Source: Amycolatopsis deserti
GTDB lineage: Bacteria > Actinomycetota > Actinomycetes > Mycobacteriales > Pseudonocardiaceae
Length of the DNA: 64,000 nt
Assembly: GCF_014653945.1 (NCBI RefSeq)
Contig: NZ_BNAU01000001.1
Span: forward strand, 558,001-622,000
Direction of reading: 5' to 3'
The stretch's first letter is position 1. Every line of letters begins with the position of its first letter. The translations under genes were made by a program, and so were the position numbers. The notes below the pieces were generated by a model. That model searched no databases, had not been told where the DNA came from, and was given only the letters and a program-made list of their open reading frames with translations. Shown here piece by piece: positions 10,437-26,708 of the stretch.

Positions 10437-10457
10437 GCGCCCGGTACCATCGCGACG

Positions 10458-11036
10458 GTGACGAGACAGACGGGCGGGCGGACGCGGCCGCACGGCACGG
10501 GCCGGGAGGCGCTGCTGGAGGCGGCCGTGCGGGTCGTGGCCCGCCAGGGCCTCCGGCAGCTCACCTACCGGTCCGTCGCGAAGGAGGCCGGCGTCAACCA
10601 CGGGCTGGTGACCCACTACTTCGGCAGCATCGACGAACTGACCGCCCAGGCCCTGCGCCGGTCCCTGGACAGCAGCGTGCCGTCGGTGACCCCCGAGCCC
10701 GGCTCCGGCCGTCTCGACCTGCTCGCCGACGGCCTCGCCGACTTCGTGGCCGAAGAGCCGGAGACCCAGGCGTTCCAGTACGAGCTGGCGCTGGAGTCTC
10801 GGCGCCGGGCCGAGCTGGCGCCGCAGGTCCGCGCGCTCTACGACAGCTACCGCGCGGCGATCCGCACCGAGCTGGCCGCGGCCGGACTGGACGACGAAGA
10901 CCTGGCCGCGCTGGTGTTCGCCGCCCTGGACGGCCTGGTGTTCCAGCAGATCTGCGGTGTCAACGCAGTGCCGACCGAGCGGGTCCTCGATGCCCTGCGC
11001 CAGGTGCTCACGCGGCTGCGGCCGGACGCCGGCTGA
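10458..11036 (+). CDS. TetR-family regulator of the flavin amine oxidase operon (inferred)
   Basis: A 192-aa regulator with an N-terminal HTH (LTYRSVAKEAGVNHGLVTHYFGS, about residues 32-54) and a helical C-terminal domain. The frame is open far upstream. GTG 10458 is preferred because the family's N-terminus begins there and the inverted repeat at 10411-10436 lies just before it. Its stop is only 3 bp from the stop of the convergent MHS transporter. Local autoregulation and control of the amine oxidase/APC operon are inferred from the divergent layout. Confidence 0.82.
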   Translation: MTRQTGGRTRPHGTGREALLEAAVRVVARQGLRQLTYRSVAKEAGVNHGLVTHYFGSIDELTAQALRRSLDSSVPSVTPEPGSGRLDLLADGLADFVAEEPETQAFQYELALESRRRAELAPQVRALYDSYRAAIRTELAAAGLDDEDLAALVFAALDGLVFQQICGVNAVPTERVLDALRQVLTRLRPDAG

Positions 11037-11039
11037 GCC

Positions 11040-12377
11040 TCACCGGCTCGGCTCCGGGACGGCGGTGCGGCGGCTCGCCCGGCTAGCGCGCACCGGCGCG
11101 GTTTCGGGCAGGCAGAGCAGGCACACCAGCGACAGCACCAGCAGCGCGGCCAGGTAGAAGCCCACGTTGTGCGCGTCCCCGGTGCCGGCGATGATCCGGT
11201 TCGCGATCATCGGCGAGATGCCGCCGCCCAGCACCGCTCCGACGTGGTAGCCCACGCCCACCCCGGACTGGCGCTGCTCGCGCGGGAACAGCTCGCTGAA
11301 GAACGTGTACATCGGTCCGAAGAGGACACCGGTGGCGCAGAACCCGAGGATCACCGCGGTGTTGACGGCGGCGACCGTGCCCGCCGAGCTGAGCGGGAAC
11401 ATCACCAGCGCGGAGGTCAGCGACAGCACGGCACCGGCCAGCATCACCGGCTTGCGGCCGACCCGGTCGGACAGCCACGCGGCGCCCACGTTGCACAACG
11501 CGTGGCAGACCAGGGCGATCATCGAGCCGTTGACGATCGGCTGCCGAGGCAGCCCGAGGCCCTCCGGGGCGCGGGCCGTGGCGTAGGACAGCATGAACGT
11601 CGCCAGCGCGAACGTGCTGGCGGTGAGCCCGATGTTGACGCCCGCGACCAGGGCGAGCCGCCGCCAGTTCGTCTTCACCACCGCCAGCAGCGGGGCCTTC
11701 TCCCGCGCGCCCTCCTGTTCGGCCATCCGCCGGAACTCCGGGCTCTCGGCGACGCCCTTGCGGATCCACAGGCCGACGACGAGCACCAGGCCGCCGGCGA
11801 GGAAGGGGATCCGCCAGCCCCAGCCCAGGACCGCGCCGTCGGGGAGCAGCAGCACCAGGGTGAAGGCGAGGTTGGCCAGGATCGTGCCGACGGGCGAACC
11901 GATCGCCACGAACGACCCGTACAGGCCGCGGCGGCGCTGCGGCGCGTGTTCGATCGCCAGCACGGCGGCGCTGGAGTTCTCGCCGCCGCGCGCCAGGCCG
12001 TGGCACAACCGCAGCAACACCAGCATGACCGGCGCGGCGACACCGACGGCCGCGTAGGTGGGCAGCACGCCCATCCCCAGCGTCGCCAGGCCCATCAGGA
12101 CGAACGCGCCGAACAGCGCGGTCTTGCGGCCGCGCCGGTCGCCGAGCCAGCCGAAGACGGCGCCGCCGAGCGGGGCGGCCACGAAGCCGATCGCGAACGT
12201 CGCCAGGCTCATGAACGTGCCGAACCACGCGTCGCCGGTGGCGAAGAACACCTGGCCGAACACCAGGGCGGCCGCGGTTCCGTAGATCTGGAAGTCGTAC
12301 AGCTCGAGCGAGGTGCCGACCGCGGCGGCCACGCCGATGCGTGGCAGGCTGGGCCGGGCGGGATCCGGTGTGGTCAT
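11040..12377 (-). CDS. MFS transporter, metabolite:H+ symporter (MHS) family
   Basis: A 445-aa, 12-helix transporter of the MHS branch (relatives of ShiA/KgtP/ProP-like carriers). It shows the loop motif FGWLGDRRGRKTAL and the following LLRLCHGLARGGENSS. These carriers import organic acids. It is divergent from the SnoaL/response-regulator pair, and the 176-bp gap contains two copies of the motif also found near the iac genes. Uptake of indole-3-acetate or a related acid is therefore a reasonable inference. The MFS genes reported near some proteobacterial iac loci give a loose precedent. Confidence 0.85.
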   Translation of the reverse strand: MTTPDPARPSLPRIGVAAAVGTSLELYDFQIYGTAAALVFGQVFFATGDAWFGTFMSLATFAIGFVAAPLGGAVFGWLGDRRGRKTALFGAFVLMGLATLGMGVLPTYAAVGVAAPVMLVLLRLCHGLARGGENSSAAVLAIEHAPQRRRGLYGSFVAIGSPVGTILANLAFTLVLLLPDGAVLGWGWRIPFLAGGLVLVVGLWIRKGVAESPEFRRMAEQEGAREKAPLLAVVKTNWRRLALVAGVNIGLTASTFALATFMLSYATARAPEGLGLPRQPIVNGSMIALVCHALCNVGAAWLSDRVGRKPVMLAGAVLSLTSALVMFPLSSAGTVAAVNTAVILGFCATGVLFGPMYTFFSELFPREQRQSGVGVGYHVGAVLGGGISPMIANRIIAGTGDAHNVGFYLAALLVLSLVCLLCLPETAPVRASRASRRTAVPEPSR

Positions 12378-12411
12378 GGACCGTCCTCATCGTCCGTGGT
12401 GGTTCCCGCTA

Positions 12412-12475
12412 CGGTAGGAAAACGTCGGCCGTGCCTCCCAGTCGCAAATCCCGCAGCCGCGTAGGGAAAACCTGC
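12412..12475. promoter_or_regulatory. Two candidate response-regulator sites upstream of the SnoaL/regulator pair
   Basis: CGGTAGGAAAACGTC at 12412-12426 and CGTAGGGAAAACCTGC at 12460-12475 share GGAAAAC with a G/T-A-rich left flank. A closely matching element (CGTAAGGAAAACCCTTA on the minus strand) lies at 16335-16351 upstream of iacG, and a weaker one at 17872-17887 upstream of iacA. I infer binding by the FixJ-like regulator encoded at 13105-13719. Confidence 0.45.
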
Positions 12476-12553
12476 AGCACGCTTGACAAGCTCGGAGCCG
12501 GTGACTGAGGGTGTTGGGCATCGCGCCTTCTGCTGCGGAGAAGGAGAACTCTG

Positions 12554-13108
12554 TTGACCGACGCGGCTTTGGAAGCACTCGCCCGGCGGGTGGCGGTCCT
12601 CGAGGCCGAGGCCGACATCCGGCGGCTACAAGCTCGTTACATGTTCCTGTGCGACACGCCGCTGCCCGAGTACGGGGTCGCCGGTGACGCGGAACGCATC
12701 GAGCTGATCCTCCAGCTCTACACCGAGGACGCGGTGTGGGAGGGCGTCGGCGAGTACTACGACGGCCAGTTCGGCCGGGCCGAGGGCAAGGCGGCCATCC
12801 GCGCGCACTTCGAGCGGTTCTGGGGCGAGAAGCGGGATCCGGCGCTGCTGCTCAACGCGCACTACCTGACCTCGGAGCAGATCCACGTGCACGGCGACAC
12901 CGCCGACGGGCAGTGGATCCACATGCAGCCGTGGCTGTTCTCCGACGGCTCGGCCCTGTTGCGGTCCAGCCGCCTCAACAACACCTTCCGCCGGGACGAG
13001 GGGGTCTGGCGGATCACCCGGACCCGCACCGAGAACGTGTTCGTGGCGCCGCTGCCGGACCACTTCGCCAGCGCCCACCCGTCGGCGTCGGTGCTGCTGA
13101 AGCCATGA
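12554..13108 (+). CDS. SnoaL/NTF2-like protein of the iac region
   Basis: A 184-aa NTF2-fold protein. The opening LARRVAVLEAEADIRRLQARYMF and later YTEDAVWEGVG and VWRITRTRTENVF are typical of SnoaL-like aromatic-pathway proteins. Such proteins act as cyclases, isomerases, dehydratases or accessory subunits; the specific role is unknown. The TTG start at 12554 has AAGGAGAA upstream. Its stop overlaps the regulator's ATG by 4 bp, so the two are co-translated. Because proteobacterial iac clusters include an uncharacterised gene (iacI), this is a candidate counterpart, but I cannot verify that. Confidence 0.75.
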   Translation: MTDAALEALARRVAVLEAEADIRRLQARYMFLCDTPLPEYGVAGDAERIELILQLYTEDAVWEGVGEYYDGQFGRAEGKAAIRAHFERFWGEKRDPALLLNAHYLTSEQIHVHGDTADGQWIHMQPWLFSDGSALLRSSRLNNTFRRDEGVWRITRTRTENVFVAPLPDHFASAHPSASVLLKP

Positions 13109-13719
13109 CGGGCGAAGCGGTGGTGCACATCGTCGACGACGACGAGGGGCTGCGGCAGTCGCTGGCGTTCCTGCTGGAGAGCGTGGGGATCCAGGCGCTG
13201 ACCTACCCGGACGCGCCGGCGTTCCTGGCGGAGTTCGACCCGGACGAGCCGGCGGTGGTGATCGTCGATGTGCGGATGCCGGGCATGAGCGGGTTCCAGC
13301 TGCAGGAGGAGCTGACCGCGCGCGGCTACCCGGCGCCGGTGGTGTTCTGCTCGGCGCACGGTGACATCCCGATGTCGGTGCGCGCGCTCACCCGCGGCGC
13401 GGTGGACTTCCTGGAGAAACCCTACGAACCGCAGCGGATCCTGGAGGTGGTGCAGCGCCAGCAGCAGGACGCGTGCCGCCGCTTCGCGCGCGACGCCGCG
13501 CGGCGGGCCGTGCAGCAGCGGTTGAGCCAGCTGACCCAGCGGGAACGCGAGGTGCTGCGGCTGGTGGTGGAGGGGGTTTCCAGCCAGATGGCGGCCAACC
13601 GCCTGGGCACCAGCGTGAAGACGATCGACGTGCACCGGGCCCGCATCAAGGCGAAAACCGGAGCGGACAGCCTGGGCGCCCTGGTGCACGACATCCTCAC
13701 CCACCGGGTGACGGTGTAG
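13105..13719 (+). CDS. FixJ-type response regulator (receiver + LuxR HTH)
   Basis: A 204-aa two-domain regulator. The receiver domain covers residues 1-120, with the acidic pocket DDD near residue 11, phospho-acceptor Asp55 (VVIVDVRMPGMSG) and the switch Lys in FLEKPYEP. The LuxR-type HTH is at about 140-200 (LTQREREVLRLVVEG, KTIDVHRARIKAKT). This is the FixJ/TodT/StyR arrangement common in aromatic catabolism. It is coupled to the SnoaL gene by ATGA overlap. The obvious partner is the PAS kinase at 16347-17834. Two-component control of iac genes has precedent in Paraburkholderia phytofirmans. Confidence 0.9.
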   Translation: MTGEAVVHIVDDDEGLRQSLAFLLESVGIQALTYPDAPAFLAEFDPDEPAVVIVDVRMPGMSGFQLQEELTARGYPAPVVFCSAHGDIPMSVRALTRGAVDFLEKPYEPQRILEVVQRQQQDACRRFARDAARRAVQQRLSQLTQREREVLRLVVEGVSSQMAANRLGTSVKTIDVHRARIKAKTGADSLGALVHDILTHRVTV

Positions 13720-14266
13720 TAGTTAGCTGGCGCGCGATCGGGTGGCTCCCGCGCGGGGGCCACCCGAGGGCGGCGCCTCCTGGGTGGACGGGGGCGGTCA
13801 GCGCTTGCTGTGGCGGGGAGCAGCCCAGCGCGGCGCGTCCTGGGTGGACGGGGGCGATCGTCGCTTGCCGTGGCGGCTCAGGCGCCGGGTCGCCGGGTCG
13901 AACTCACCCGGCCAGGGCGCGTTCCGCTGGCCGGCGGCGGATCAGCTGGCGCCCGAGGGCAAGCCGCGCCTGCGCTCGGGCGGCGGATCACCGCGTCATC
14001 GGCTACAACTCACCAGCCAGGGCGCGTTCCACCCAGCAGCCCGTGGCCGGTCGCGCGGTTTCCTGCCGCGCGTGGCTGATCAGGTGCCCGGCGCCTGCCA
14101 GGGCCGGCTCACGGGCGGGGGGAGCCCTAGGGACGGCGCGTCCTGGGTGGACGGGCGCGATCAGCGCTTGCCGTGGCGGCTCACGCGCTGAGTCTCCGGG
14201 TGGACTCACGGGGCCACGGCGCGTCCCGCTGGCCGGCGGCTCACGCACCGCGTCCTCGACTGGAAC
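13720..14266. repeat. 547-bp non-coding region of degenerate repeats, including decayed copies of the amidase 3' end
   Basis: No gene is convincing here. Unit A (CGGCGCGTCCTGGGTGGACG, then a GATCAGCGCTTGCCGTGGCGG-like stretch) occurs at 13771, 13831 and 14134; the first two are exactly 60 bp apart. Unit B (AACTCACCCGGCCAGGGCGC followed by GTTCC) occurs at 13901 and 14007, and again at 14264 where it is the real 3' end of the amidase. The 14007 copy continues matching the amidase for about 75 bp; on the minus strand it reads RQETARPATGCWVERALAGE against the gene's RQETALLATGCWVERALAG. The block therefore looks like repeated partial duplication of the amidase tail followed by decay. Confidence 0.7.
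14007..14085 (-). pseudogene. Decayed duplicate of the amidase C-terminal coding end
   Basis: On the minus strand this stretch still encodes a recognisable amidase tail (QETARPATGCWVERALAGE), close to the tail of the intact gene at 14267-15481. Base changes have moved the stop slightly downstream (GELstop instead of Gstop). No upstream amidase sequence accompanies it, so it is a fragment, not a second gene. Confidence 0.65.
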
Positions 14267-15481
14267 TCATCCGGCCAGGGCGCGCTCCACCCAGCAGCCC
14301 GTCGCCAGCAGGGCCGTTTCCTGTCGCGCCCGGCCGATCAGCTGCAGCCCCAGCGGCAGGCCGTCCTTCGTGGACAGGCCGGGCACCGCCAGCTGCGGGA
14401 CTCCCAGTGCCTGCCACGGGCGGCTCAGCACCGGGTCGCCCGTCGCGGTCAGGCCGGCCGGTGCGGGGCCCGGCGCCGCGGGGCCCAGGATCGCGTCGCA
14501 GGACCGCAATAGCTCCGACACCACCCCACCCGCCGAGCGCACCACCTCCCGCGCCCGCCGGTAATCCGCCTCCGGGGTGCGCGCGCCGGTGCGCAGCAGC
14601 GTCGCCAGTGGCGCGCTCAGCTCGTCGGCCCGCGCCAGCTCGGCCGCCCGCTCCCGGGCCGCCTCGTAGGCCATCACCACCGGGTGCGCGGCCGTCACCT
14701 CCGCGATCAGCCGCTCGTCCGGGAACGCCTCCACCACCGCCCCGGCCGCGACCAGCCGCTCGCGCGCCTCCGCCAGCGCCTCCCGCATCTCCGGGCCCGC
14801 CGTCCCGGTCCACAGCAGCAGCCGCGGCGGAACCAGCGGCGCGGCACCCGCGTCCGGCTCGCCCGTCAGCGCCGCGAACGCCAGCGCCAGATCCGCCACC
14901 CCCGCCGTGTAGAAGCCGTGGCTGTCCAGGCTCGGGCTCAGCCCGGTCACCCCGTCGACCGGGAACCGGCCGTGGCTGAGCACCAGCGCCGCGACCCCGC
15001 AGAACGCCGCCGGCCGGATCACCGAACCCGCGGTCTGCGAACCCAGCGCCAGCGGCACCTGACCCGCGGCGACGGCGGCCGCCGACCCGCTCGACGACCC
15101 GCCCGGCGAGTGGCCCGGCGCGCTCGGGTTGTCCGTCGGCCCGGGGGAGAAGAACGCGAACTCGGTGGTCACGGTCTTGCCCACCGGCACCGCCCCCGTC
15201 CGTCGCCACGCGGTGACGATCGCGGCATCGGCCTGCGCGGGCGGGGCGCCGGCGCGCAGACTGGACCCGCACCGCGTGGGCAGGCCGGCGACGTCGATGA
15301 TGTCCTTCACCCCGAGCGGCACCCCTCCGAGCGGACCGGACACGGTCAACGACGGCGCCTCCGCGAACTCCACCCACGCCCGCAGCCTCGGCTCGGTTTC
15401 CGCGATGCGCTCCCGCGACCGCCGCAGCGCCCCGTCGGTCGAACCGGTCACCAGCTCCCGCAGCGACCACGGCGCCCTCAC
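14267..15481 (-). CDS. iacH: Amidase signature family protein (IacH-like)
   Basis: A 404-aa amidase with the Ser-cisSer-Lys triad. Lys59 is in PLGVKDIID, the cis-Ser is in SPGGSSSGSA near residue 129, and nucleophile Ser153 is in GSQTAGSVIRPA. The spacing agrees with malonamidase-type enzymes. GTG 15481 is chosen for its 4-bp GTGA overlap with the stop of the preceding small gene. It is the last gene of the iacG / small-protein / amidase operon. IacH of proteobacterial iac clusters is likewise an amidase of unsettled role; indole-3-acetamide hydrolysis is one option. The 3' end is duplicated in the adjacent repeat block. Confidence 0.82.
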   Translation of the reverse strand: MRAPWSLRELVTGSTDGALRRSRERIAETEPRLRAWVEFAEAPSLTVSGPLGGVPLGVKDIIDVAGLPTRCGSSLRAGAPPAQADAAIVTAWRRTGAVPVGKTVTTEFAFFSPGPTDNPSAPGHSPGGSSSGSAAAVAAGQVPLALGSQTAGSVIRPAAFCGVAALVLSHGRFPVDGVTGLSPSLDSHGFYTAGVADLALAFAALTGEPDAGAAPLVPPRLLLWTGTAGPEMREALAEARERLVAAGAVVEAFPDERLIAEVTAAHPVVMAYEAARERAAELARADELSAPLATLLRTGARTPEADYRRAREVVRSAGGVVSELLRSCDAILGPAAPGPAPAGLTATGDPVLSRPWQALGVPQLAVPGLSTKDGLPLGLQLIGRARQETALLATGCWVERALAG

Positions 15482-15735
15482 GCGTCCTCCCAGGCGGCCT
15501 CGGCGACCCAGTAGTCCATGCCGCTCTCGCTCACCCCGTGCCGCCACTCCGAGATCCGGCGCAGCGTCGGCTCGACCCGCGCGGTGACGGCGTCGGCCGC
15601 CTCCGGGCCGTCCTCGGGCACCTGCCAGTGCACCCAGTTCAGCTCGCGGCCCTCGGCGTCGTGCACGAACAGGTCCACGTGCCGCCAGCCGTAGCCGTGC
15701 GTGTCGGTGTAGCAGGTCAACGTCATCCGTTCCAT
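15478..15735 (-). CDS. Small conserved-looking protein of the iac operon, function unknown
   Basis: An 85-aa acidic protein starting MERMTLTCYTDTHGYGWRHV and rich in Trp (six or seven, for example LNWVHWQVP and SEWRHGV). It contains no recognisable motif, signal peptide or membrane helix. It is 10 bp downstream of the flavin reductase and overlaps the amidase start by 4 bp, so it is certainly in the same transcription unit. The Trp-rich composition might suit aromatic ligand binding, but that is speculation. Confidence 0.75.
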   Translation of the reverse strand: MERMTLTCYTDTHGYGWRHVDLFVHDAEGRELNWVHWQVPEDGPEAADAVTARVEPTLRRISEWRHGVSESGMDYWVAEAAWEDA

Positions 15736-15745
15736 GCGCGCTCTC

Positions 15746-16252
15746 CTAGGCCGCCGTGGTGCCGAGGCTGTGGAACCGGCGCCGGAAGTACACCAGCGCC
15801 GCCGGGTCGTCCCCGGTGAGCACGGTGTCCACCTCGACGAACAGCACCGAATGCGACCCCGACGCCTGCTCGCCCACGATGGTGCCGACCACCGACGCGC
15901 ACGCCCCGGTGAGCACCGGGACCCCGTGGGTCGCCAGGTCCCACCGCCCGTCGGTGAACCGCTCGGCGGTGGGCACCCCGGTGGCGCCGGCGAAGTGCAG
16001 CGCCAGGTCCTCCTGGCCGGCGCCGAGCACGTTCACCGCCAGCCGGCCGTTGCCGACCAGGATGTCGTGCGAACGGGCGGTGCGGTTGACGCAGACCAGC
16101 ACCGTTGGCGGCGAGTCGGTCACCGAACACGCCGCGCTCACGGTCAGGCCGGCGCGGCCCCGCGGGCCGTCGGTGGTGATGACGGTGACCGCCGCGGACA
16201 GGGTGGCCATCGCGGCGCGGAACTCGGTCTGCCGCCGGGTCAGCTCGGGCAC
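15746..16252 (-). CDS. iacG: Flavin reductase (HpaC/IacG-like)
   Basis: A 168-aa FMN/FAD reductase of the HpaC-type split-barrel family. It starts with the family pattern MATLSAAVTVITTDGPRGRAG, then LTVSAACSVTDSPPTVLVC, and GSHSVLFVEV near the C-terminus. It would use NAD(P)H to supply reduced flavin to a two-component monooxygenase. The IacA-like flavin monooxygenase at 17970 is the obvious client. It heads the leftward operon iacG / small protein / iacH. A GGAAAAC-type candidate regulator site lies about 85 bp upstream, at the end of the kinase gene. Confidence 0.88.
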   Translation of the reverse strand: MPELTRRQTEFRAAMATLSAAVTVITTDGPRGRAGLTVSAACSVTDSPPTVLVCVNRTARSHDILVGNGRLAVNVLGAGQEDLALHFAGATGVPTAERFTDGRWDLATHGVPVLTGACASVVGTIVGEQASGSHSVLFVEVDTVLTGDDPAALVYFRRRFHSLGTTAA

Positions 16253-16334
16253 GATTCCTCCAAACGATCGCCGGACGAGTTGACCGTACGCGCGCGCCGG
16301 GGCGGCCGGGAATTGCGACTTCTTCCGCTGCCGC

Positions 16335-16351
16335 TAAGGGTTTTCCTTACG
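16335..16351 (-). promoter_or_regulatory. Candidate response-regulator site upstream of iacG
   Basis: On the minus strand this reads CGTAAGGAAAACCCTTA, with TAAGG and CCTTA forming an imperfect palindrome. It shares CGTA(A/G)GGAAAACC with the site at 12460-12475. It overlaps the stop codon of the kinase gene and lies upstream of the iacG start at 16252. Confidence 0.45.
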
Positions 16352-17834
16352 TCTCGGCGAGCGGCAGCGCGAACCCGAACCGGGACCCGCCGCCCTCGCG
16401 CGGCTCGGCCCAGATGCGGCCATGCTGGCGCGTGATGATCCGGTGCGACAGCGCCAGCCCGATCCCGCTGCCGTGCTCCTTGGAGGTGAACGACTCGGCG
16501 AACGGGTCGCGCGGCAGCCCGCGTCCCCGGTCGTCGACGGTCAGCACGCCCTCGCCGCCCTCGGCGCGTGTGGTCAGCACGATCTCGCGGCGCTCCGGGT
16601 CGCAGGCGGCCACCTCGTCGATCGCGTTGAAGCAGAAGTTGAGCACCACCTGCCCGGTCAACACCCGTTCGCACCGCACCGGCACCGGACCCGGATGCTC
16701 GCGCACCACCACCTCGACCCCCGCCGCGTCCGCCCGCAGCCGCACGAAGTACAGGCACTCGGTGACGATGTCGCCGAGATCGGCCACCTGCCGCACGTGT
16801 TCCAGGTGCCCGACGAACGCACGCAGGGCGGCGACGATCGCGCTCGCCCGGTCGATCTGCCGGACCGCGCTGTCGATGCCGAAGGTCACGTGCTTCGCCG
16901 CGGCCTCGCCCGCGGCCGCCAGCGAGGCCGCGTGGCGGGCGGCGCCGCCCAGGAAGTTGCCCGCCGCCGCGAGCGGCTGGCCCAGCTCGTGCGCGATCGC
17001 CATCGCCATGTCGCCCATCGCGTGGTACCGGGCCAGGTAGTTCTCCTGCTGCAGCTCGCGTTCCCGGCGCAGGTCGGCCCGCACGCGCCCGGACACGTCG
17101 TGCAGGATCATCAGCAGCGCGTCCCCACCGGTCTCCTGCAGCAGTTCCAGGCTGCCCTCCAGCCACACCGGCTCCTCCGCCGCGGCGACCGCGAGCTGCA
17201 CCGTGGTCACCGGATCGGCGCGCTCCAGCACCTCCGCCCAGGACACCGGACGGCCGGCCAGCCGCAGCGTGCCGTAGCGCTCCAGCGGGCCGAGCGGCTG
17301 CCCGCTGTCCGCGCCGATCACCTCCAGCGCGGTGTCGGTGGCGAACCGGAGCGTTCCGGCGCGGTCCAGCATCAACGCGATCGTCGAGGTGCGGTGCGCC
17401 AGCGCGTCCATGTAGGACGCGGTCCGCCGCAGCTCCTGCTCGACCTCCTGCTCGCGTTCGATGTCGCGGAACTGCACCATGACCGCGGTGCCCTGCGCGA
17501 GTTCGACGCGGATCGCGATCGCCTCGGTCGGGATCACCCGGCCGGTGCGCGAGCGGTAGTGCCACTCGATGCTGTTGGTGCCCTTCTCCACCGCCTCCTG
17601 CAGCCACGCCCGCCCGATCACGCGGTCGTACTGGCGGGCCGTGCTGCTCATGTGGTGCGCCTTGAGCGGCCGCAGCTCGGCCACGCTCCACTCGAGCATC
17701 TCGCACGCGGCGGGGTTGGCCCACAGGATGTTCTTCGTCGCGGCGTCGTGCACCAGCACGCACATGCGGCTGGCGTTGAGCATCGCCACGAAGTCCTCGG
17801 TGACCAGTTCGGGCGCGCGGGGATCCACCTGCAT
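16347..17834 (-). CDS. PAS-domain sensor histidine kinase, FixL-like
   Basis: A 495-aa kinase without visible membrane helices, so probably cytosolic. An N-terminal PAS domain (LVHDAATKNILWANPAACEML, then RTGRVIPTEAIAIRV) is followed by a second PAS-like segment around residues 150-250. The dimerisation domain carries His282 in AIAHELGQPLAAAGN, the HELxQPL form of FixL-type kinases. The ATPase domain has the N box NFCFNAIDEV, G1 VDDRGRGLP and G2 GSGIGLALS. It probably senses an aromatic ligand and phosphorylates the FixJ-like regulator at 13105. It is divergent from iacA. Confidence 0.9.
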   Translation of the reverse strand: MQVDPRAPELVTEDFVAMLNASRMCVLVHDAATKNILWANPAACEMLEWSVAELRPLKAHHMSSTARQYDRVIGRAWLQEAVEKGTNSIEWHYRSRTGRVIPTEAIAIRVELAQGTAVMVQFRDIEREQEVEQELRRTASYMDALAHRTSTIALMLDRAGTLRFATDTALEVIGADSGQPLGPLERYGTLRLAGRPVSWAEVLERADPVTTVQLAVAAAEEPVWLEGSLELLQETGGDALLMILHDVSGRVRADLRRERELQQENYLARYHAMGDMAMAIAHELGQPLAAAGNFLGGAARHAASLAAAGEAAAKHVTFGIDSAVRQIDRASAIVAALRAFVGHLEHVRQVADLGDIVTECLYFVRLRADAAGVEVVVREHPGPVPVRCERVLTGQVVLNFCFNAIDEVAACDPERREIVLTTRAEGGEGVLTVDDRGRGLPRDPFAESFTSKEHGSGIGLALSHRIITRQHGRIWAEPREGGGSRFGFALPLAET

Positions 17835-17871
17835 CCCGCCAGCGTAGGCCGGGCGTGCCGGCGCCGCGCTG

Positions 17872-17887
17872 AAGGAATCCCCTACCC
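17872..17887. promoter_or_regulatory. Candidate regulator site upstream of iacA
   Basis: The minus strand reads GGGTAGGGGATTCCTT, a weaker relative of the GGAAAAC motif seen upstream of iacG and of the SnoaL/regulator pair. It lies between the kinase start (17834) and the iacA start (17970), where divergent promoters must be. Confidence 0.3.
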
Positions 17888-17969
17888 GGGGCCGCAGAAC
17901 CACCAATTCCGCGCGGTGTGCCCGGCTGCCTACCGTCGCAAGGACAACCCGCGACGAGGAGGAGGCGCG

Positions 17970-19103
17970 ATGGTGCACACCCCGGAGGGCGTCGGGTTCG
18001 GCGACGTCCTCGCCGAGCTCGCGCGGCGGCGGCAGGAGTTCCGCGAGCAGCGCTACGTGCCGAAGGACTTCGTCGACCGGCTCAAGCGGATCGGCATCTA
18101 CCGCGCGGCGACGCCGAGCAAGTTCGGCGGGCAGCCGCTGCCGCCGGCCGAATTCCTGGACGCCGTCGAACGGATTTCGGTGGTCGACGGCTCCACCGGC
18201 TGGGTCGCCAGTTTCGGCTCCGCCCAGATCTACCTGGCCGCACTACCGCTGGAAACCCAGGCCGAGCTGTACCGCGACGGCCCGGACGTGGCGTTCGCGG
18301 GCGCGTTGTTCCCGATGCAGCGCGCCGCGGCCACCGAACGCGGTTACCTGGTCGACGGGCACTGGAAGTTCGCCAGCGGCTGCATGGGCGCCGACGTGAT
18401 CGGGGTCGGGCTGCCCGGCGACGAGGACTCCGGCGGCAAGCCGCGCACCGCCGTGCTGCGGCCGGACCAGGTCGAGATCGTGCAGGACTGGGACGTGGTC
18501 GGCATGCGGGCCACCGGGTCGTTCGACATCGTGGTGCGCGGGGTCGAGGTGCCGCGCGAGTGGACGTTCATCCGCGGCGGCGCGCCGACCGTGGACGAGC
18601 CGCTCTACCACTACCCGACGATCGCCTACGCCTCCCAGGTCCTCGCCGTGGTCGGCGCGGGCGTGGCGCGCGCGGCGCTGGACCACGCCAAGCAGGCCGG
18701 CGGCGGCTACACCGGCGTCACCGGCGCCCCGAAACTCGCCGACCGGGCCTACTACCGCACCGAGGTCGCCCGCGCCGAGGCCGAGCTGTGCTCGGCCCGC
18801 GCCTGGTTCTACGACCTCAGCGACCAGGTGTGGCAGCACGTGCTGCGCGGCGACCCCGCCACCGACGAGCACAACGCCCGGCTGCGCCTGGCCGCCGCGC
18901 ACCTGGCCCGGGTGTCCTCGGCGGTGGTGGACCGGCTCGTGGAGATCTCCGGCACCGCCCCGATCTACACCGGGCACCCGCTGCGGGACCTCGCCGGCGA
19001 CGCCGTGGTGCCCAAGCAGCACGCCTTCCTCGGTCCGGCCATCTTCGACTCGGCCGGCGCCGTCCTGATGGGACTGTCACCCACCAGTCCCGGTTTCCGC
19101 TGA
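17970..19103 (+). CDS. iacA: Flavin-dependent monooxygenase with acyl-CoA dehydrogenase fold (IacA-like)
   Basis: A 377-aa group-D flavin monooxygenase (relatives: HsaA, HpaB2-type, IacA). Segments VDGSTGWVASFGSAQIYLA and SGCMGADVIGVGLPG match the fold, which here uses reduced flavin and oxygen and not acyl-CoA. In the iac pathway IacA makes the first hydroxylation of indole-3-acetate. The ATG has a strong GAGGAGGAG site. It leads a run of six genes in the order monooxygenase, small protein, Rieske alpha, beta, SDR and reductase, the order of known iac clusters. Reduced flavin would come from iacG across the divergent promoter. Confidence 0.85.
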   Translation: MVHTPEGVGFGDVLAELARRRQEFREQRYVPKDFVDRLKRIGIYRAATPSKFGGQPLPPAEFLDAVERISVVDGSTGWVASFGSAQIYLAALPLETQAELYRDGPDVAFAGALFPMQRAAATERGYLVDGHWKFASGCMGADVIGVGLPGDEDSGGKPRTAVLRPDQVEIVQDWDVVGMRATGSFDIVVRGVEVPREWTFIRGGAPTVDEPLYHYPTIAYASQVLAVVGAGVARAALDHAKQAGGGYTGVTGAPKLADRAYYRTEVARAEAELCSARAWFYDLSDQVWQHVLRGDPATDEHNARLRLAAAHLARVSSAVVDRLVEISGTAPIYTGHPLRDLAGDAVVPKQHAFLGPAIFDSAGAVLMGLSPTSPGFR

Positions 19104-19132
19104 CCCGACCACCCCCGACGAGGAGGACCGAG

Positions 19133-19513
19133 ATGAGCGCACCCCCGCTGCGCGTGCTGTTCTGCATCGGCATCAACCAGAACTTCTTCGACCTGCCCGC
19201 CGACGGCATCACGCCCGGCCACGTGTGGCAGGCGTTCGTGTCCATGATGGACGGCATCAAGGCGTTGCCGGGTGTGGACTTCATCGGCGACATCGACGAC
19301 GACGCGCACATGGTCGGCCCCTCCGACGGCTGGCCGTGGACCGCCTACCTGCTCGCCGACGTGGACACGGTCGACACCGTCAAGGCCGCCTGCAACCTGT
19401 TCCGCACCACCCCGGTGGGCGACGGCGACGCGAAGCTGTGGCGCTTCGCCAAGGTCGAAGCCCGCATCGGCCGCGCGCTGACGGTGCGCGACGACGTCGA
19501 GCTGCCCGGCTGA
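19133..19513 (+). CDS. iacB: Small protein between the monooxygenase and Rieske alpha genes (IacB-like)
   Basis: A 126-aa protein beginning MSAPPLRVLFCIGINQNFFD, with GHVWQAFVSMMDGIKALPGV and SDGWPWTAYLLADVDT. Alternating strands and helices suggest a ferredoxin-like or dimeric-barrel fold. No catalytic motif is evident. Its position between iacA and the Rieske alpha subunit is that of the uncharacterised iacB; the assignment is by position and size, not by a remembered alignment. A GAGGAGGA ribosome site precedes the ATG, and the gap to the next gene is 12 bp. Confidence 0.7.
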   Translation: MSAPPLRVLFCIGINQNFFDLPADGITPGHVWQAFVSMMDGIKALPGVDFIGDIDDDAHMVGPSDGWPWTAYLLADVDTVDTVKAACNLFRTTPVGDGDAKLWRFAKVEARIGRALTVRDDVELPG

Positions 19514-19525
19514 GGAGAGGACACC

Positions 19526-20803
19526 ATGACCGACGACATCTTCGCCGAGGCGCCCGCGGACCTCGTCCAGCCGGACCGGGTCGCCGGCCGCCTCTACACC
19601 GACCCGGCGATCTTCGAGCAGGAGATGACGAAGATCTTCGAGCGCACCTGGGTGTGGGTCGCGCACGAGAGCGAGCTGCCCAAGCCCGGCACCTTCAAGT
19701 CCACCTACGTGGGCCGTCAGCCGGTGATCGTCTCGCGGGACCGCAAGGGCAACCTGCACACGCTCCTCAACCGCTGCCGCCACCGCGGCGCCAGCCTCTG
19801 CGAAAAGCCGCGCGGGCAGGCCAACGGCTTCACCTGCCCGTACCACGCCTGGTCCTACGGCCTGGACGGCACGCTGCGCGGCATCCCCTACCCGGACGGC
19901 TACGAGGGCGTGGTGGACAAGAAGGACCTGTCGCTGCGCAAGCTGCGCACGGAGTCCTACGGCGGCATGGTGTTCGCCACCTTCGCCGGCGACATCGAGC
20001 CGCTGGCGGACTTCCTCGGCGACGCCAAGCTGTGGCTGGACCGGTTCATGAAGCAGGGCGGCGGCTATCCGGTCAAGGTGCTGGGCCGCCACCAGTTCCG
20101 GTTCCGCGGCAACTGGAAGATCCAGCTGGAGAACACCACCGACGGCTACCACTTCCCGATCGTGCACCGCTCGTGGATGGCGTCGGTGGACGCCGAGACC
20201 GCTGACATGATGTCGTTCATGACCGACCCGGCGGCGATCACGCACGCGCTGGGCAACGGTCACAGCGTCATGCAGATGGTGCCGGAGCACTCCGACCTCG
20301 ACGCCGACGACGGCACCGAACCGCTGCAGGCCCGCTTCGACCACGTCGTGGCCGAGCTGTCCAAGACCCTGGACGACGGGCAGGTGCGCAAGCTGGTCCG
20401 CGCCATGCACGGCACCGGGTTCAACCTGAACCTGTTCCCGAACGTGTCGATGTCGGCGGCGTTCTTCCGCGTCCTGCGGCCGATCGCGGTGGACGAGACC
20501 CTGATCGAGCACATCGCGATCGGCCCGGACGGCCCGCCCGAGCTGGACGTGGTCAACCGCGAGCGGATGCGCATCCACGAGCACTTCCAGGGCCCGTTCG
20601 GGTTCGGCACCCCGGACGACGCCGAGGGCTGGGACCGCGTGCAGCGCGGCGCCCAGGCCGCGCCGGAGATGCCGATCCTGGTCAACCGCGGCCTTGGCCG
20701 GGAGAAGGACGACGAGCACGGCTGGCCGACCTCCCACGTGACCGACGAGGCCGGCATGCGCGCCGCGTACTCCCAGTGGAAGCAGATGATGAGCGATGAC
20801 TGA
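19526..20803 (+). CDS. iacC: Rieske aromatic-ring-hydroxylating dioxygenase, large subunit (IacC-like)
   Basis: A 425-aa catalytic subunit. The Rieske [2Fe-2S] ligands are C84-x-H86 and C104-x2-H107 (NRCRHRG, FTCPYHAWSYG). The mononuclear-iron segment NTTDGYHFPIVH supplies His209 and His214, with bridging Asp206. It adds O2 to an aromatic or heteroaromatic substrate; in the iac pathway this subunit takes the oxidised indole-acetate intermediate towards catechol. The stop overlaps the beta-subunit start by 8 bp, so the two are co-translated. Confidence 0.9.
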   Translation: MTDDIFAEAPADLVQPDRVAGRLYTDPAIFEQEMTKIFERTWVWVAHESELPKPGTFKSTYVGRQPVIVSRDRKGNLHTLLNRCRHRGASLCEKPRGQANGFTCPYHAWSYGLDGTLRGIPYPDGYEGVVDKKDLSLRKLRTESYGGMVFATFAGDIEPLADFLGDAKLWLDRFMKQGGGYPVKVLGRHQFRFRGNWKIQLENTTDGYHFPIVHRSWMASVDAETADMMSFMTDPAAITHALGNGHSVMQMVPEHSDLDADDGTEPLQARFDHVVAELSKTLDDGQVRKLVRAMHGTGFNLNLFPNVSMSAAFFRVLRPIAVDETLIEHIAIGPDGPPELDVVNRERMRIHEHFQGPFGFGTPDDAEGWDRVQRGAQAAPEMPILVNRGLGREKDDEHGWPTSHVTDEAGMRAAYSQWKQMMSDD

Positions 20804-21296
20804 GGCGACGATCGTCCCGGCGACCGACACGCGCGTCACCCGCGCGATCGAGCTGATCTGGCGCGAAGCCGAACTGCTCGACCGCAAGGACTACCTGGTG
20901 TGGCAGGAGCTCTACACGCCCGACGCGTACTACGTCGTGCCGATCGATCCGGACACCGAGGACTTCGCCGGCTCGCTCAACATGATCTACGACGACGCGC
21001 GCATGCGCCAGGCGCGCGTGGCCCGGATGACCGAGGGGTACGCCCTGGCCGCCGTCGACGCCGCCCGCACGGTCCGCACGGTGTCCCGGTTCGTGCCGGA
21101 GTCCGTTTCGGACGAGGAGGTGGTGCTGCGCTCGGCGCAGGTGCTGATCGCGTTCAAGCGCGGACGGCACGACATCTGGGCCGCCGACGTGCGCCACCGC
21201 ATCCGGCTGTCCGACGAGGGCGACCGCATCGCCGAGAAGGTCGTGCGGCTGGTGGACAGCGAGGACGCCGTGCCGGCCGCGGGGTTCCTGCTGTGA
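20796..21296 (+). CDS. iacD: Ring-hydroxylating dioxygenase, small subunit (IacD-like)
   Basis: A 166-aa beta subunit with the NTF2-like fold of the family. The opening AIELIWREAELLDRKDYLVW, then ELYTPDAYYVVPID and SLNMIYDDARMRQARV, are characteristic. It packs with the Rieske alpha subunit into the hexameric oxygenase and is structural. It overlaps both neighbours (8 bp with alpha; 4-bp GTGA with the SDR), which implies strict translational coupling and stoichiometric production. Confidence 0.9.
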   Translation: MTEATIVPATDTRVTRAIELIWREAELLDRKDYLVWQELYTPDAYYVVPIDPDTEDFAGSLNMIYDDARMRQARVARMTEGYALAAVDAARTVRTVSRFVPESVSDEEVVLRSAQVLIAFKRGRHDIWAADVRHRIRLSDEGDRIAEKVVRLVDSEDAVPAAGFLL

Positions 21297-22018
21297 GCGC
21301 GCAGACCGCGGTGGTCACCGGCGGCGCCCACGGGCTCGGTGAGGCGATCGTGCGACGCCTGCACGCCGAGGGCTTCCGCGTCGCGATCGCCGACCTCGAC
21401 GGGACCGCCGCCGAGGCGCTGGCGAAGGAACTCGGCGCGGCGAAGGGGTACGCGGTCGACGTCGCCGACCCGGCCGCCCTGACGGGACTGCTGTCCGGCG
21501 TGCTGGCCGACTTCGGGTCGGTGCACGTGCTGGTCAACAACGCCGCCCGCACCCAGGCGAAGAAGCTGATGGACATCACCGCCGAGGAGCTGGACGCGGT
21601 CCTGAAGGTCAACCTCGGCGGCACGTTCCACGCCTGCCAGATCTTCGGCGCGCACTTCGCCGCGCGGGGCTACGGCCGGATCGTGAACATGGCGTCGCTG
21701 GCCGGGCAGAACGGCGGCACCGCGACCGGCGGGCACTACGCGTCGTCCAAGGGCGCGATCCTGTCCGCCACCAAGGTGTTCGCCCGCGAACTGGCGCCGC
21801 ACGGGGTCACCGTCAACGCGGTGTCGCCCGGCCCGCAGGACAGCCCGGCGGTGCGGTCCATTGTGGACGACCTGGACGGGTTCGTGCGGACCATCCCGGT
21901 CGGCCGGCTCGGCGACCCGGCGTTCGTCGCCCGGATGGTCGCCCTGCTCGCTTCGCCCGAAGCCGCCTCGGTCACCGGCGCCTGCTGGGACGCCAACGGC
22001 GGCCTCTACCTGCGCTGA
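21293..22018 (+). CDS. iacE: Short-chain dehydrogenase/reductase (IacE-like)
   Basis: A 241-aa classical SDR. The cofactor motif is TGGAHGLGE, NNAA is near residue 82, and the active-site Y-x3-K is in HYASSKGA with an upstream Ser in VNMASLAG. In the iac pathway the SDR (IacE) acts with IacA on the route from hydroxylated indole-acetate to the oxindole intermediate. The GTG at 21293 is selected because it overlaps the beta-subunit stop and starts the conserved strand AVVTGG directly. Confidence 0.85.
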   Translation: MSAQTAVVTGGAHGLGEAIVRRLHAEGFRVAIADLDGTAAEALAKELGAAKGYAVDVADPAALTGLLSGVLADFGSVHVLVNNAARTQAKKLMDITAEELDAVLKVNLGGTFHACQIFGAHFAARGYGRIVNMASLAGQNGGTATGGHYASSKGAILSATKVFARELAPHGVTVNAVSPGPQDSPAVRSIVDDLDGFVRTIPVGRLGDPAFVARMVALLASPEAASVTGACWDANGGLYLR

Positions 22019-22034
22019 CCCCGAGGGAGGGACG

Positions 22035-22976
22035 ATGACGAGAACCGTGGTCCGCGTCGCGGAGGTCAGGCAGGAGGCCGCCGGGATCCGCGCCCTGCGC
22101 CTGGTCCGCGACGACGGCGCCCCGCTGGGACCGTACGAGGCCGGCGCGCACGTCGACGTCGTCGGCCCGACCGGCCTGGTGCGGCAGTACTCGCTGTGCT
22201 CGCCGCCGCACGAGCCTTCGTCGCTGCTGATCGCGGTGAAGAAGGAGGCCGCCTCACGCGGTGGTTCCGCAGCGCTGCACACGGTTCAGGCCGGGGACAC
22301 GCTGGAGATCGGCGAGCCGCGCAACCTGCTGCGGATCGCCGACGCCGCCCGCCATGTCCTGGTGGCCGGTGGCGTCGGCGTGACCCCGCTGCTGAGCCTG
22401 GCCTACGAGCTGGACCGCCGGGGTGCGGAGTTCGAGCTGCACTACTTCGCGCGGGCCCGGGAGCAGGCCGCGTTCGCCGACCTGGTCGCTGCCGAGTTCG
22501 GTGCCCGGCTGCATTTCGGCGTGCCGCGCGCCGAGCAGCCGACGCTGCTCAAGGAGGTCGCGGCTGATCTGCCCCCGGACGCACGCGTCTACACGTGCGG
22601 GCCGGAGGGGTTCATGGCGCAGGTCGGCGCGGTGTTCGCGCCCGTCGTCGGTGCGGAGCGGGTGCACGTCGAGCACTTCGTGGCCGCGGAGATCGACACC
22701 AGCGGGGACCGCCCGTTCACCGTGGAGCTGGACACCGGCGAGGTGTTCGCGGTGCCCGCGGACAAGTCGATCCTCACCGTGCTGGGCGAGAACGGCATCG
22801 AGGTGTTCTCCTCGTGCGAGGAGGGCATCTGCGGCTCGTGCGTGTCCGGGGTGCTGGAGGGCGAGCCGGACCACCGGGACAATTGCCTGTCGGCGGCCGA
22901 CCGGGCGGCCGGGGACCAGATGGCGCTGTGCGTCTCCCGCGCGAAAACCCCCCGGTTGAAGATCGAGCTGTACTGA
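22035..22976 (+). CDS. iacF: Phthalate-dioxygenase-reductase-type FMN/[2Fe-2S] reductase (IacF-like)
   Basis: A 313-aa electron-transfer protein with three domains in order. The FMN-binding barrel has RQYSLCSPP, the NAD-binding domain has GVGVTPLLSL and YTCGPEGFM, and a C-terminal plant-type [2Fe-2S] ferredoxin has CEEGICGSC plus a later Cys in MALCVSRA. It passes electrons from NADH to the Rieske centre of the dioxygenase. It ends the iacABCDEF run, and a strong hairpin follows at 23001-23031. Confidence 0.9.
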   Translation: MTRTVVRVAEVRQEAAGIRALRLVRDDGAPLGPYEAGAHVDVVGPTGLVRQYSLCSPPHEPSSLLIAVKKEAASRGGSAALHTVQAGDTLEIGEPRNLLRIADAARHVLVAGGVGVTPLLSLAYELDRRGAEFELHYFARAREQAAFADLVAAEFGARLHFGVPRAEQPTLLKEVAADLPPDARVYTCGPEGFMAQVGAVFAPVVGAERVHVEHFVAAEIDTSGDRPFTVELDTGEVFAVPADKSILTVLGENGIEVFSSCEEGICGSCVSGVLEGEPDHRDNCLSAADRAAGDQMALCVSRAKTPRLKIELY

Positions 22977-23043: not shown

Positions 23044-24030
23044 TCAGCCCAGGGCGGCCCGGGCCGCGCGGGCGATCCCGTCCGCGTCGAGGCCGTAGTG
23101 CCGGTACAGGTGGGTCGGCGGTCCGATGAGCGCGTACTCGTCCCGGAGCCCGTGCCGCACCACCCGCGCCGGGAGGCCCTGTTCGGCGACGACCTCGGCG
23201 ACCGCGCCGCCGAGCCCGCCCAGGATGCTGTGCTCCTCGACGGTCAGGATCACGCCGGACCGGGCGGCCGCCTTCGCCACCGCGTCGGCGTCGAGCGGCT
23301 TGACGGTGTGCATGTCCAGCACGCCGGCCGAAATCCCCTCGGCGCTCAGCGCCGCCGCCGCGGACAGGGCGGGGTGCACCATCGATCCGGTGGCGATGAT
23401 CGTCAGATCGCCGCCGGCCGAGTGCTCGATCGCCCGCCCGATGGTGAACTCCCGGTCGCCGCGGTCGTAGACGTCGGGATCCTGTCCGCGCCCGATCCGG
23501 AAGTAGATCGGGCCCGGCCAGGTGGTGGCCGCCCGCAGCGCGGACCGCAGCTGCGCCGCGTCGGCCGGGGCGATCACGGTCAGGCCCGCGATGCTGCGGG
23601 TGATGGCGAGGTCCTCGGTGGCGTGGTGCGAGGTGCCGTAGTAGCCCAGGGTGATGCCGGCGTGGTGGCCGATCAGCCGGACCGGGAGCTTGGTGTAGGC
23701 CACGTCCGTGCGGATCTGCTCGCACGCGAGCAGGGCCAGGAACGAGGCGAAGGTCGCCACGTGCGGCTGCCAGCCGGTGGTGGCCAGGCCCGCGGCGGTG
23801 GACACCATGTGCTGCTCGGAGATGCCGAACTGGACGTAGCGGTCCGGGTGGCGGTCCTGGAAGCGGACCAGGCCGTTGGAGTACTTCAGGTCCGCGGTGC
23901 CGGCGACGATCGGATGTCCCTCGTCCACCAGATCGCCGAGGGTGTCGGCCAGGGCGTGCAGGCCCGGGGCGCGGTCCAGCAGGGTCAGCAGGTGCCAGGA
24001 TTCGGGCTGCAGCCCGGGTGCGACGCTCAT
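23044..24030 (-). CDS. Transketolase C-terminal-type subunit
   Basis: A 328-aa protein matching the central and C-terminal (pyrimidine-binding plus C-domain) half of transketolase. It carries RFQDRHPDRYVQFGISEQHM, whose Glu is the expected cofactor-activating residue, and IGRGQDPDVYDRG. With the N-terminal half encoded just upstream (4-bp ATGA overlap) it forms a split transketolase. Such split enzymes usually sit in sugar or sugar-alcohol catabolic clusters, not the central pentose pathway. The divergent IclR gene probably controls it. Confidence 0.87.
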   Translation of the reverse strand: MSVAPGLQPESWHLLTLLDRAPGLHALADTLGDLVDEGHPIVAGTADLKYSNGLVRFQDRHPDRYVQFGISEQHMVSTAAGLATTGWQPHVATFASFLALLACEQIRTDVAYTKLPVRLIGHHAGITLGYYGTSHHATEDLAITRSIAGLTVIAPADAAQLRSALRAATTWPGPIYFRIGRGQDPDVYDRGDREFTIGRAIEHSAGGDLTIIATGSMVHPALSAAAALSAEGISAGVLDMHTVKPLDADAVAKAAARSGVILTVEEHSILGGLGGAVAEVVAEQGLPARVVRHGLRDEYALIGPPTHLYRHYGLDADGIARAARAALG

Positions 24031-24890
24031 CGGCCCCTCCGCAGTTCCTCGATCGCGTTGCGCTCGTCCTGCTCGGCGAGCCAGCCCAGGTGCCAGCCGA
24101 ACTCGGCTTCCATGTAGGAGATGCCCTTGCCCTTCACGGTGTCGGCGATGATCACGACGGGAGTGGTGCGGGTGGTGTCCGCGACGACCTCGCGCAGCAA
24201 GCCGAGCAGCGCGGCCACGTCGTGCCCGTCGACCCGGTGGGCCTGCCAGCCGAAGGCGCGCCACTTGTCTTCGAGCGGCTCGATCCCGGTGACGGTGTCG
24301 ATCCGGCCGTCGAGGGAGTGGTCGTTGCGGTCGACGATCGCGATCAGGTTGGACACCCGGTGGTGGGCCGCCCCGAGCGCCGCCTCCCAGATCTGCCCCT
24401 CGTGCAGCTCGCCGTCGCCGAGCAGGACGAAGACGTTCGAGTCGTAGCCCCGCATCCGGGTGCCCAGTGCGATCCCGGTGCCGGTGGACAGCGCGTGGCC
24501 CAGTGATCCGCTGCTGAAGTCGATGCCGGGGATCCGGGTCATGTCCGGGTGATCGCCGAAGGCGTTGCCCAGCCGGGTGTAGTCGTCCAGCTCGCGCGGG
24601 TCGAAGAACCCCCAGTCGGCCAGCAGCGGGTACAGCGTCGCCGCGGCGTGGCCCTTGCCGAACAGGAAGCGGTCGCGCTCGGGCCAGTCCGGCTCGCCGC
24701 GCCGCAGCCGCATGACGCCGTAGTAGAGCGTGGCGAGGATTTCCGCGCAGGAGAAGCCGGAGGCGTAGTGACCGGTCTTGGCGATGGAGATCAGCCGGAC
24801 GGTTTCCAGGCGGGCGTGCAGCGCGCGCTCGCTGATCGTGTCGATGAGGTCCGCGAGCCCGGGCCGCGGATCGTGGTTGACGACTGTCAT
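24027..24890 (-). CDS. Transketolase N-terminal-type subunit (ThDP-binding)
   Basis: A 287-aa protein. The thiamine-diphosphate motif is GDGELHEGQIWEAA, ending in VDRNDH, and the N-terminal KTGHYASGFSCAEILATLYY is typical. It supplies the ThDP-diphosphate and Mg site for the split enzyme with the next gene. The ATG at 24890 fits the family N-terminus, although the ribosome site is weak. It is divergent from the IclR regulator across 90 bp. Substrate could be a ketopentose or a modified sugar imported by the ABC system to the right. Confidence 0.86.
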   Translation of the reverse strand: MTVVNHDPRPGLADLIDTISERALHARLETVRLISIAKTGHYASGFSCAEILATLYYGVMRLRRGEPDWPERDRFLFGKGHAAATLYPLLADWGFFDPRELDDYTRLGNAFGDHPDMTRIPGIDFSSGSLGHALSTGTGIALGTRMRGYDSNVFVLLGDGELHEGQIWEAALGAAHHRVSNLIAIVDRNDHSLDGRIDTVTGIEPLEDKWRAFGWQAHRVDGHDVAALLGLLREVVADTTRTTPVVIIADTVKGKGISYMEAEFGWHLGWLAEQDERNAIEELRRGR

Positions 24891-24980
24891 GAGACGGCAA
24901 AGTACCGTCTGTCGGGCACGCTGTCCATAGAACGAGAATCCTTTCTGATGGTCGTCGTGTCCGCAGAGCGGTAAGATTCC

Positions 24981-26693: not shown

Positions 26694-26708
26694 CGCTCCA
26701 GCCGATCC

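Follow-up and report, generated by a model that had tools for sequence, protein, structure and literature searches.

What does the gene block at positions 12554-22976 of this stretch of Amycolatopsis deserti DNA degrade, and what switches it on? The stretch analysed here, referred to as the window, covers 64 kb of a 7.74 Mb genome, and all coordinates are window positions. Based on gene families, gene order and a DNA motif that recurs at four sites, we consider it likely that the block is an iac-type gene set, predicted to convert auxin (indole-3-acetate) to catechol, and controlled by a sensor kinase and response regulator through the four-site motif.

An iac-type gene set

The core of the block is a run of six plus-strand genes at 17970-22976, encoding an IacA-like flavin monooxygenase (17970-19103; Acyl-CoA_dh_2), an IacB-like small protein (19133-19513) with a ferredoxin-like alpha+beta fold as predicted by modelling and fold search, the alpha (19526-20803; PF00355, PF00848) and beta (20796-21296; PF00866) subunits of an IacC- and IacD-like Rieske dioxygenase, an IacE-like short-chain dehydrogenase (SDR; 21293-22018) and an IacF-like PDR-type reductase (22035-22976). 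The alpha and beta genes overlap by 8 bases, the beta and SDR genes by 4. On the minus strand, an IacG-like flavin reductase (15746-16252; PF01613) and an IacH-like amidase (14267-15481; PF01425) are encoded, and all genes named in an earlier note on this DNA were found where it had placed them. Absent from that note are an IacI-like SnoaL-fold protein with a TTG start (12554-13108, plus strand; PF13577), an uncharacterised 85-residue protein, orf85 (15478-15735, minus strand), encoded between the flavin reductase and the amidase, and a major facilitator superfamily (MFS) metabolite/H+ symporter (11040-12377, minus strand; TIGR00883, E 4e-107, under the curated cut-off), which is a candidate transporter of auxin or dioxindole-3-acetate.

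Counterparts of IacA-F and IacI were matched in the Acinetobacter plasmid iac locus, of order H-A-B-I-C-D-E-F-G, at identities of 45% (A), 60% (B), 56% (C), 36% (D), 48% (E), 37% (F) and 38% (I, over 165 residues). IacA-F are 51-70% identical to counterparts on Streptomyces and Rhodococcus plasmids. The former carries iacABCDEF, flavin reductase, amidase and catBAC as a single run, with the window's flavin reductase and amidase matching at 58% and 52%, and the Rhodococcus iac locus is adjoined by catechol 1,2-dioxygenase and muconate cycloisomerase genes. Several relatives likewise hold catBAC adjacent to iac; in the host genome it is located on another contig (C2), and one of two catechol 1,2-dioxygenase matches above the curated cut-off lies within it. 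The closest database relative of IacA, at 94% identity, is from Amycolatopsis, and some metagenome relatives carry the source label indole-3-acetate monooxygenase. As IacA-F and IacI have Acinetobacter counterparts, the plasmid loci match at 51-70% and the host holds catBAC, the iac family assignment of the earlier note stands.

Two observations count against this assignment. The Acinetobacter matches of the IacH-like (30%) and IacG-like (29%, over 80 residues only) proteins are weak. In addition, our survey of 297 family genomes (cut-offs E ≤ 1e-90 for IacA, E ≤ 1e-120 for IacC, E ≤ 1e-60 for the kinase and E ≤ 1e-10 for orf85) returned 51 genomes with an IacA match, and for six of these matches (L092-L097; 64-76% identity) the fetched stretch of 13-20 kb contains no IacB-F, although one (L092) has an amidase relative. 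IacA identity alone therefore over-calls the pathway. Beyond these six, 41 genomes hold IacC, three hold IacA-B-E only (L088, L089, L100) and one holds a decayed copy (L098).

The decayed copy, in a sister genome (G146:C1:3689337-3709300), consists of a partial IacA, IacB, pieces of IacC, and IacF; orf85, the sensor pair and a regulatory site scoring above 15 (see below) were not found at this locus. Two of the IacA-B-E-only loci (L088, L100) have kept the sensor pair, the flavin reductase and the site, and in L089 the site remains along with a fragment of the kinase. Other than a 35% Rieske match several kb off in L100, we found no IacC-D-F, IacI or orf85 in these three, and such loci may stop at dioxindole-3-acetate. 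A split iac arrangement in Burkholderiales is seen on a plasmid of Caballeronia sp. SBC2 (L007), where IacA (51%) adjoins genes for a flavin reductase and a LysR regulator and the IacC match (61%) lies at a distance of about 24 kb.

Alternatively, the locus could act on a related indole or arylacetate, such as indole-3-propionate, an auxin conjugate or an oxindole, with auxin at best a side substrate. The IacA and IacE of Caballeronia are described as taking several indole acids (PMC7225977), and several Streptomyces and Gordonia loci (L170, L172, L176, L177, L192) combine IacC-D-F, IacI and orf85 with a distant IacA (54-60%), without adjacent IacB or IacE and without the site; perhaps a different upper pathway feeds the same lower module there. 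However, an IacB match is present elsewhere in four of these five genomes (interrupted by an internal stop codon in one), and in the window IacA-F and IacI are all present in the order of auxin degraders, with IacB as high as 60%. We therefore regard a related substrate as unlikely and retain auxin as the predicted one.

The earlier note had called the arrangement in two divergent blocks with a dispersed sensor pair unusual, which is not borne out by the relatives. In 59 of 81 loci, the kinase gene and iacA stand head-to-head at a distance of 105-255 bp. The order IacI-regulator, amidase-orf85-flavin reductase-kinase, iacABCDEF is found again in, among others, Amycolatopsis, Saccharopolyspora and Prauserella, and several Nocardia, some Amycolatopsis and Nocardioides show it with the regulator inverted. 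A. thermalba (L116) and A. tucumanensis (L117) hold the block at 12554-22976 with 89-99% and 84-96% identity per protein, respectively, the latter with a second, partial regulator match at 82%. As the same block recurs in relatives, its composition is not due to chance, and the arrangement is conserved through the family.

A sensor kinase and response regulator linked to iacA

The putative control pair comprises a histidine kinase with an N-terminal PAS domain (16347-17834, minus strand; PAS, HATPase_c) and a FixJ-type response regulator (13105-13719, plus strand; Response_reg, GerE). No MarR gene was found when the genes at 9005-22976 were scanned against Pfam and NCBIfam, the regulators being of the two-component and TetR types only. 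The description of the pair as FixL- and FixJ-like in the earlier note is correct for the regulator, which matches FixJ over its full length, yet under the curated cut-off. For the kinase it applies, by NCBIfam, to the core alone: the FixL equivalog match (score 135, cut-off 850) is confined to residues 257-494 and stops short of the sensor domain.

The kinase is present in 43 of the 297 genomes, all within the 51 with IacA, and is located near iacA in 42. A Cupriavidus iac locus encodes relatives of both (kinase 37%, regulator 50%), and there, too, the kinase gene lies head-to-head with iacA. Gene linkage, together with the shared DNA site described below, supports the two-component control predicted in the earlier note.

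Four regions of the kinase were compared across 19 relatives. In 15 of them, the first PAS domain (PAS1, residues 13-136) ranks highest in identity, and in one (L101) it is tied. In the Cupriavidus kinase (L009), PAS1 is 46% identical, the catalytic regions 48% and 43%, and the second sensor region 9%. Across all 20 kinase sequences, 32 residues are invariant in PAS1, including W38, R71, W77, W91 and R94, versus one in the second sensor region. Less favourably, PAS1 comes second in three relatives (L127, L104 and Cupriavidus L009). The hydropathy profile contains no predicted membrane segment, the highest 19-residue mean being 1.28. As PAS1 is conserved as much as the catalytic core or more, it is the likely auxin sensor and would bind auxin or an early product.

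A shared predicted site upstream of four genes

A partly palindromic site of the GTAGGGGA-N2-TCCCCTAC type is located 75-86 bp 5' of four start codons in the window. The predicted sites precede MFS2, a second MFS transporter gene (3728-3747, plus strand; 86 bp), iacI (12460-12479, plus strand; 75 bp), the flavin reductase gene (16332-16351, minus strand; 80 bp, overlapping the end of the kinase gene) and iacA (17867-17886, minus strand; 84 bp, in the kinase/iacA intergenic region). With a position weight matrix (PWM) derived from 39 unique sites, excluding the window and its two nearest relatives, they obtain the four best scores in the window, 30.5, 18.1, 15.7 and 29.2, respectively, and the fifth-best score is 10.2. 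Among 67 loci, 53 have TAGGGGA 5' of IacA; full palindromes, for example TAGGGGAATTCCCCTA, are seen in some Streptomyces, and in most Pseudonocardiaceae examples one half is retained as TTCAG. A degenerate pattern yields four matches in the 7.74 Mb genome, all at this locus, and none in the reversed control.

The site was further assessed in 80 loci. These come from a scan of a species-genome collection for two peptide patterns of orf85, which gave 132 stretches and 123 relatives; the 80 best relatives were retained. With the matrix trained without the window, a site scoring above 15 is present in 72 of the 80, as compared to two of the reversed sequences and one to five in each of five shuffles. 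Of 159 such sites, 145 lie within 350 bp 5' of a tested gene start (iac genes, sensor pair, transporters and upstream operon), and an upstream site scoring above 8 accompanies the flavin reductase gene in 49 of 64 loci.

Several points temper this picture. As the degenerate pattern was built to cover the four window sites, the information it provides is limited to its absence from the rest of the genome; the matrix derives from IacA-upstream sites of mostly the same loci, which leaves only the other positions independent. No tested gene start lies within 350 bp of the remaining 14 sites, and iacI has an upstream site scoring above 8 in only 6 of 65 loci. Outside the 80 loci, an Acinetobacter locus without the sensor pair scores 16.3, and the pair-holding Cupriavidus and L101 loci score only 8.6 and 10.9.

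Is the site then bound by the neighbouring regulator, or could the iac assignment be right and another protein, a TetR or an unlinked regulator, be responsible? Two TetR genes are located nearby (10482-11036; 3142-3732, plus strand, PF00440 and PF13977), and one locus, L121, keeps the site without kinase or regulator. Nevertheless, the site is present in 71 of 73 loci with kinase and/or regulator (the exceptions being L181 and L182), as compared to one of seven with neither, and that single locus, L121, possibly derives from G225, a genome with a kinase-regulator pair elsewhere. Moreover, the IacA-B-E-only loci L088 and L100 retain both pair and site, and of the two TetR genes the one compared with relatives, at 10482, is matched in only five of the 80 loci. 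Binding by another protein is thus improbable, and we favour control by the linked pair.

The top-scoring site lies to the left of the interval covered by the earlier note, in front of an operon comprising MFS2 (3833-5212; PF07690), an opine-dehydrogenase-like NAD(P) enzyme (OpDH, 5213-6301; PF02317) and a 3-hydroxyacyl-CoA-dehydrogenase-like enzyme (HCDH, 6298-7317; PF02737, PF00725), all on the plus strand. Three other Amycolatopsis genomes have both the operon and the site, the latter at the same place; in A. rhizosphaerae (L138) the operon adjoins iac, and in Enemella (L195) the two dehydrogenases do so. As a guess, the operon may serve in handling the side-chain acid or in export. To our knowledge, MFS2-OpDH-HCDH under a common site belongs to no iac pathway, which we count in favour of a related compound, rather than auxin, as the substrate.

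orf85 and the lower half of the pathway

A profile search for orf85 covering 5.8 billion protein clusters, with 7992 candidates scored, identified 245 proteins at E ≤ 0.01. Among the 120 relatives listed, the named organisms are actinobacterial and the annotations read hypothetical or uncharacterised, with a single 'immunity protein'. NCBIfam gave no match for orf85, the best Pfam E value was 0.021 (in one of 25 members), and PDB sequence matches are short, unrelated stretches. The 25 aligned sequences share 36 invariant columns, including four histidines and six tryptophans. The predicted model (predicted local distance difference test score, pLDDT, of 91) has the arrangement β-β-β-α-β-β-β, and a fold search with it gave no significant match.

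The distribution of orf85 follows that of the dioxygenase: it is present in 41 of the 297 genomes, and IacC in exactly those 41. Within 10 kb of orf85 in the 80 loci we find IacC and IacD in 77, IacA and the amidase in 73 each, kinase and regulator in 71 each, IacE and IacF in 70 each, IacB in 67, the flavin reductase in 66, IacI of the window type in 64 and IacI of the Acinetobacter type in 10. Two of the three loci without IacC, L138 and L181, are on short contigs (10-12 kb); the genome of L138 has IacC on a separate contig, and that of the third, L182, has two IacB matches elsewhere. Similarly, nine of ten genomes without IacB in the fetched stretch hold a match outside it, apparently 2-3 kb past the edge in L152, L158 and L191, and a genome-wide IacB match is missing only in G696, the genome of L172.

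Split loci separate the two halves of the gene set. In L164, L165, L178 and L194, orf85 accompanies IacC-D-F, with IacA-B-E several kb away in the first three and outside the range in L194, and the three IacA-B-E-only genomes (L088, L089, L100) are devoid of orf85. Among 72,556 plasmid records, orf85 occurs in only three, which are those with the three best IacC matches (69-76%). On the Streptomyces plasmid it lies 1.5 kb past the stretch first fetched, adjoining IacI-regulator-kinase, and on the Rhodococcus plasmid it is located about 36 kb from iacA, beside second copies of IacD-E-F, a regulator and an amidase. We infer from this linkage that orf85 belongs to a lower module with IacC-D-F and IacI.

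Three findings speak against such a role. One of the 41 orf85 matches (G054) carries an internal stop codon, the co-occurrence counts are uncorrected for shared descent (9 of 46 genera), and orf85 is absent from the Acinetobacter and Cupriavidus plasmid records, the chromosomes of which were not searched; orf85 is therefore probably dispensable for some iac pathways. Could orf85 then be a passenger, for instance a structural or stress protein caught up in the operon by accident and playing no part in the pathway? The two proteobacterial iac plasmid records without it would agree with this notion, as would the fold search, which provided no match hinting at catalysis. On the other hand, a passenger would hardly be expected to share the distribution of IacC across 297 genomes, to stay with IacC-D-F in rearranged loci, to be missing from the IacA-B-E-only loci as well as their genomes, and to retain 36 invariant columns. 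We give the passenger explanation little credence and maintain the placement of orf85 in the lower module.

Flanking genes

A copper amine oxidase of the AGAO type (1180-3057, minus strand, with its start codon at 3057; PF01179, E 6e-159 on 1180-3066) is encoded at the left end of the window, and 8 of the 80 loci (L116, L119, L122, L152, L158, L166, L187, L191) have a homologue no more than 10 kb from orf85. Between the MFS2 operon and iac, at 7222-10297, are genes for an amino acid permease and a flavin amine oxidase as well as a 101-residue open reading frame. Together with the copper amine oxidase, which is connected by linkage only, these genes could channel tryptamine and similar amines towards auxin.

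The intergenic region between regulator and amidase contains imperfect direct repeats (13771-14288), including three 71-nt copies, two of which are 72% and 89% identical to the third; an open reading frame in this stretch (13742-14191) has no Pfam match. A separate sugar locus follows just right of iacF (23044-29269), with a transketolase split in two halves, an IclR regulator, an SDR and ribose-type ABC genes. The GC fraction at the right end of the window (62001-64000) is 0.657, as compared to 0.688-0.762 in the remaining 2-kb windows.

Discussion

From the observed gene families, their order, their co-occurrence and the recurring sites, we propose ligand, binding, activation and chemistry as follows. 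Auxin would enter the cell and bind to PAS1 of the kinase, which would then phosphorylate the regulator. Bound to the predicted sites, the regulator would activate iacABCDEF, flavin reductase-orf85-amidase, iacI-regulator and MFS2-OpDH-HCDH. In the upper module, IacA (with the flavin reductase) and IacE, together with IacB, would convert auxin to dioxindole-3-acetate. The lower module, made up of IacC-D-F, IacI, orf85 and probably also the amidase, would take dioxindole-3-acetate on to catechol. The catechol would then be consumed through catBAC, the ortho-cleavage genes on the other contig. As a guess for the lower steps, the amidase may open the lactam, whereupon the dioxygenase may attack both ring carbons bearing the nitrogen and the side chain, comparable to anthranilate dioxygenase; ammonia would be lost and the side chain released as a keto acid, with orf85 acting within this sequence.

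It is possible, though clearly less assured than the pathway assignment, that orf85 is an undescribed catalyst of the dioxindole-3-acetate-to-catechol half in actinobacteria, and that PAS1 is a dedicated auxin receptor driving a four-promoter regulon, including a transporter-dehydrogenase operon new to auxin.

The MarR-controlled iac loci of Pseudomonas putida 1290 and Acinetobacter share IacA-F and IacI, looser relatives of IacG and IacH and the order A-B-(I)-C-D-E-F with the window. In contrast to these, no MarR gene was found in the block, the flavin reductase, amidase and IacI are placed in separate transcription units, and orf85 is present. The oxygenase of the iad clusters is of the Rieske type. 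As compared by description only, the iad clusters of Variovorax and Bradyrhizobium resemble the window in having a Rieske oxygenase in an auxin locus, whereas they are reported to end at anthranilate and to have two MarR regulators (PMC9613470), as opposed to the predicted catechol route of the window.

The emphasis that the earlier note placed on two-component control is anticipated in print: a LuxR and IacS two-component system is described for the iac loci of P. phytofirmans PsJN (Paraburkholderia) and four Pseudomonas strains (PMC11630574), and iacS and IacY are listed for Caballeronia glathei (PMC7225977). The window resembles these loci in encoding a sensor kinase and a LuxR-type regulator, the homology comparison covering the Cupriavidus pair. 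PsJN-type loci differ from the window in a LysR regulator and IacT transporters, as described for strain LB400 (PMC11676955), and in IacY (PMC7225977).

Auxin-degrading loci of iac-like or iad-like type are reported from 221 genera in five phyla, including Actinobacteria (PMC9613470). The intermediates between dioxindole-3-acetate and catechol were stated to be undetermined as of 2022 (PMC9613470), and for IacB and IacI in E. coli no conversion of dioxindole-3-acetate is reported (PMC7225977). The natural separation of IacA-B-E from IacC-D-F-IacI-orf85, combined with the co-occurrence of orf85 and IacC, provides a parts list for this lower half of the pathway. Similarly, a PAS kinase that has no predicted membrane segment and is linked to auxin genes in two phyla represents a candidate bacterial auxin receptor. 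We note that R. fascians relatives of IacA (72%) and orf85 (75%), possibly from one genome, are among the matches listed. Rhodococcus fascians PBTS2 grew on auxin, and its authors report having found no iac genes in the chromosome (PMC7002392). The actinobacterial iac branch may account for auxin use by this strain.

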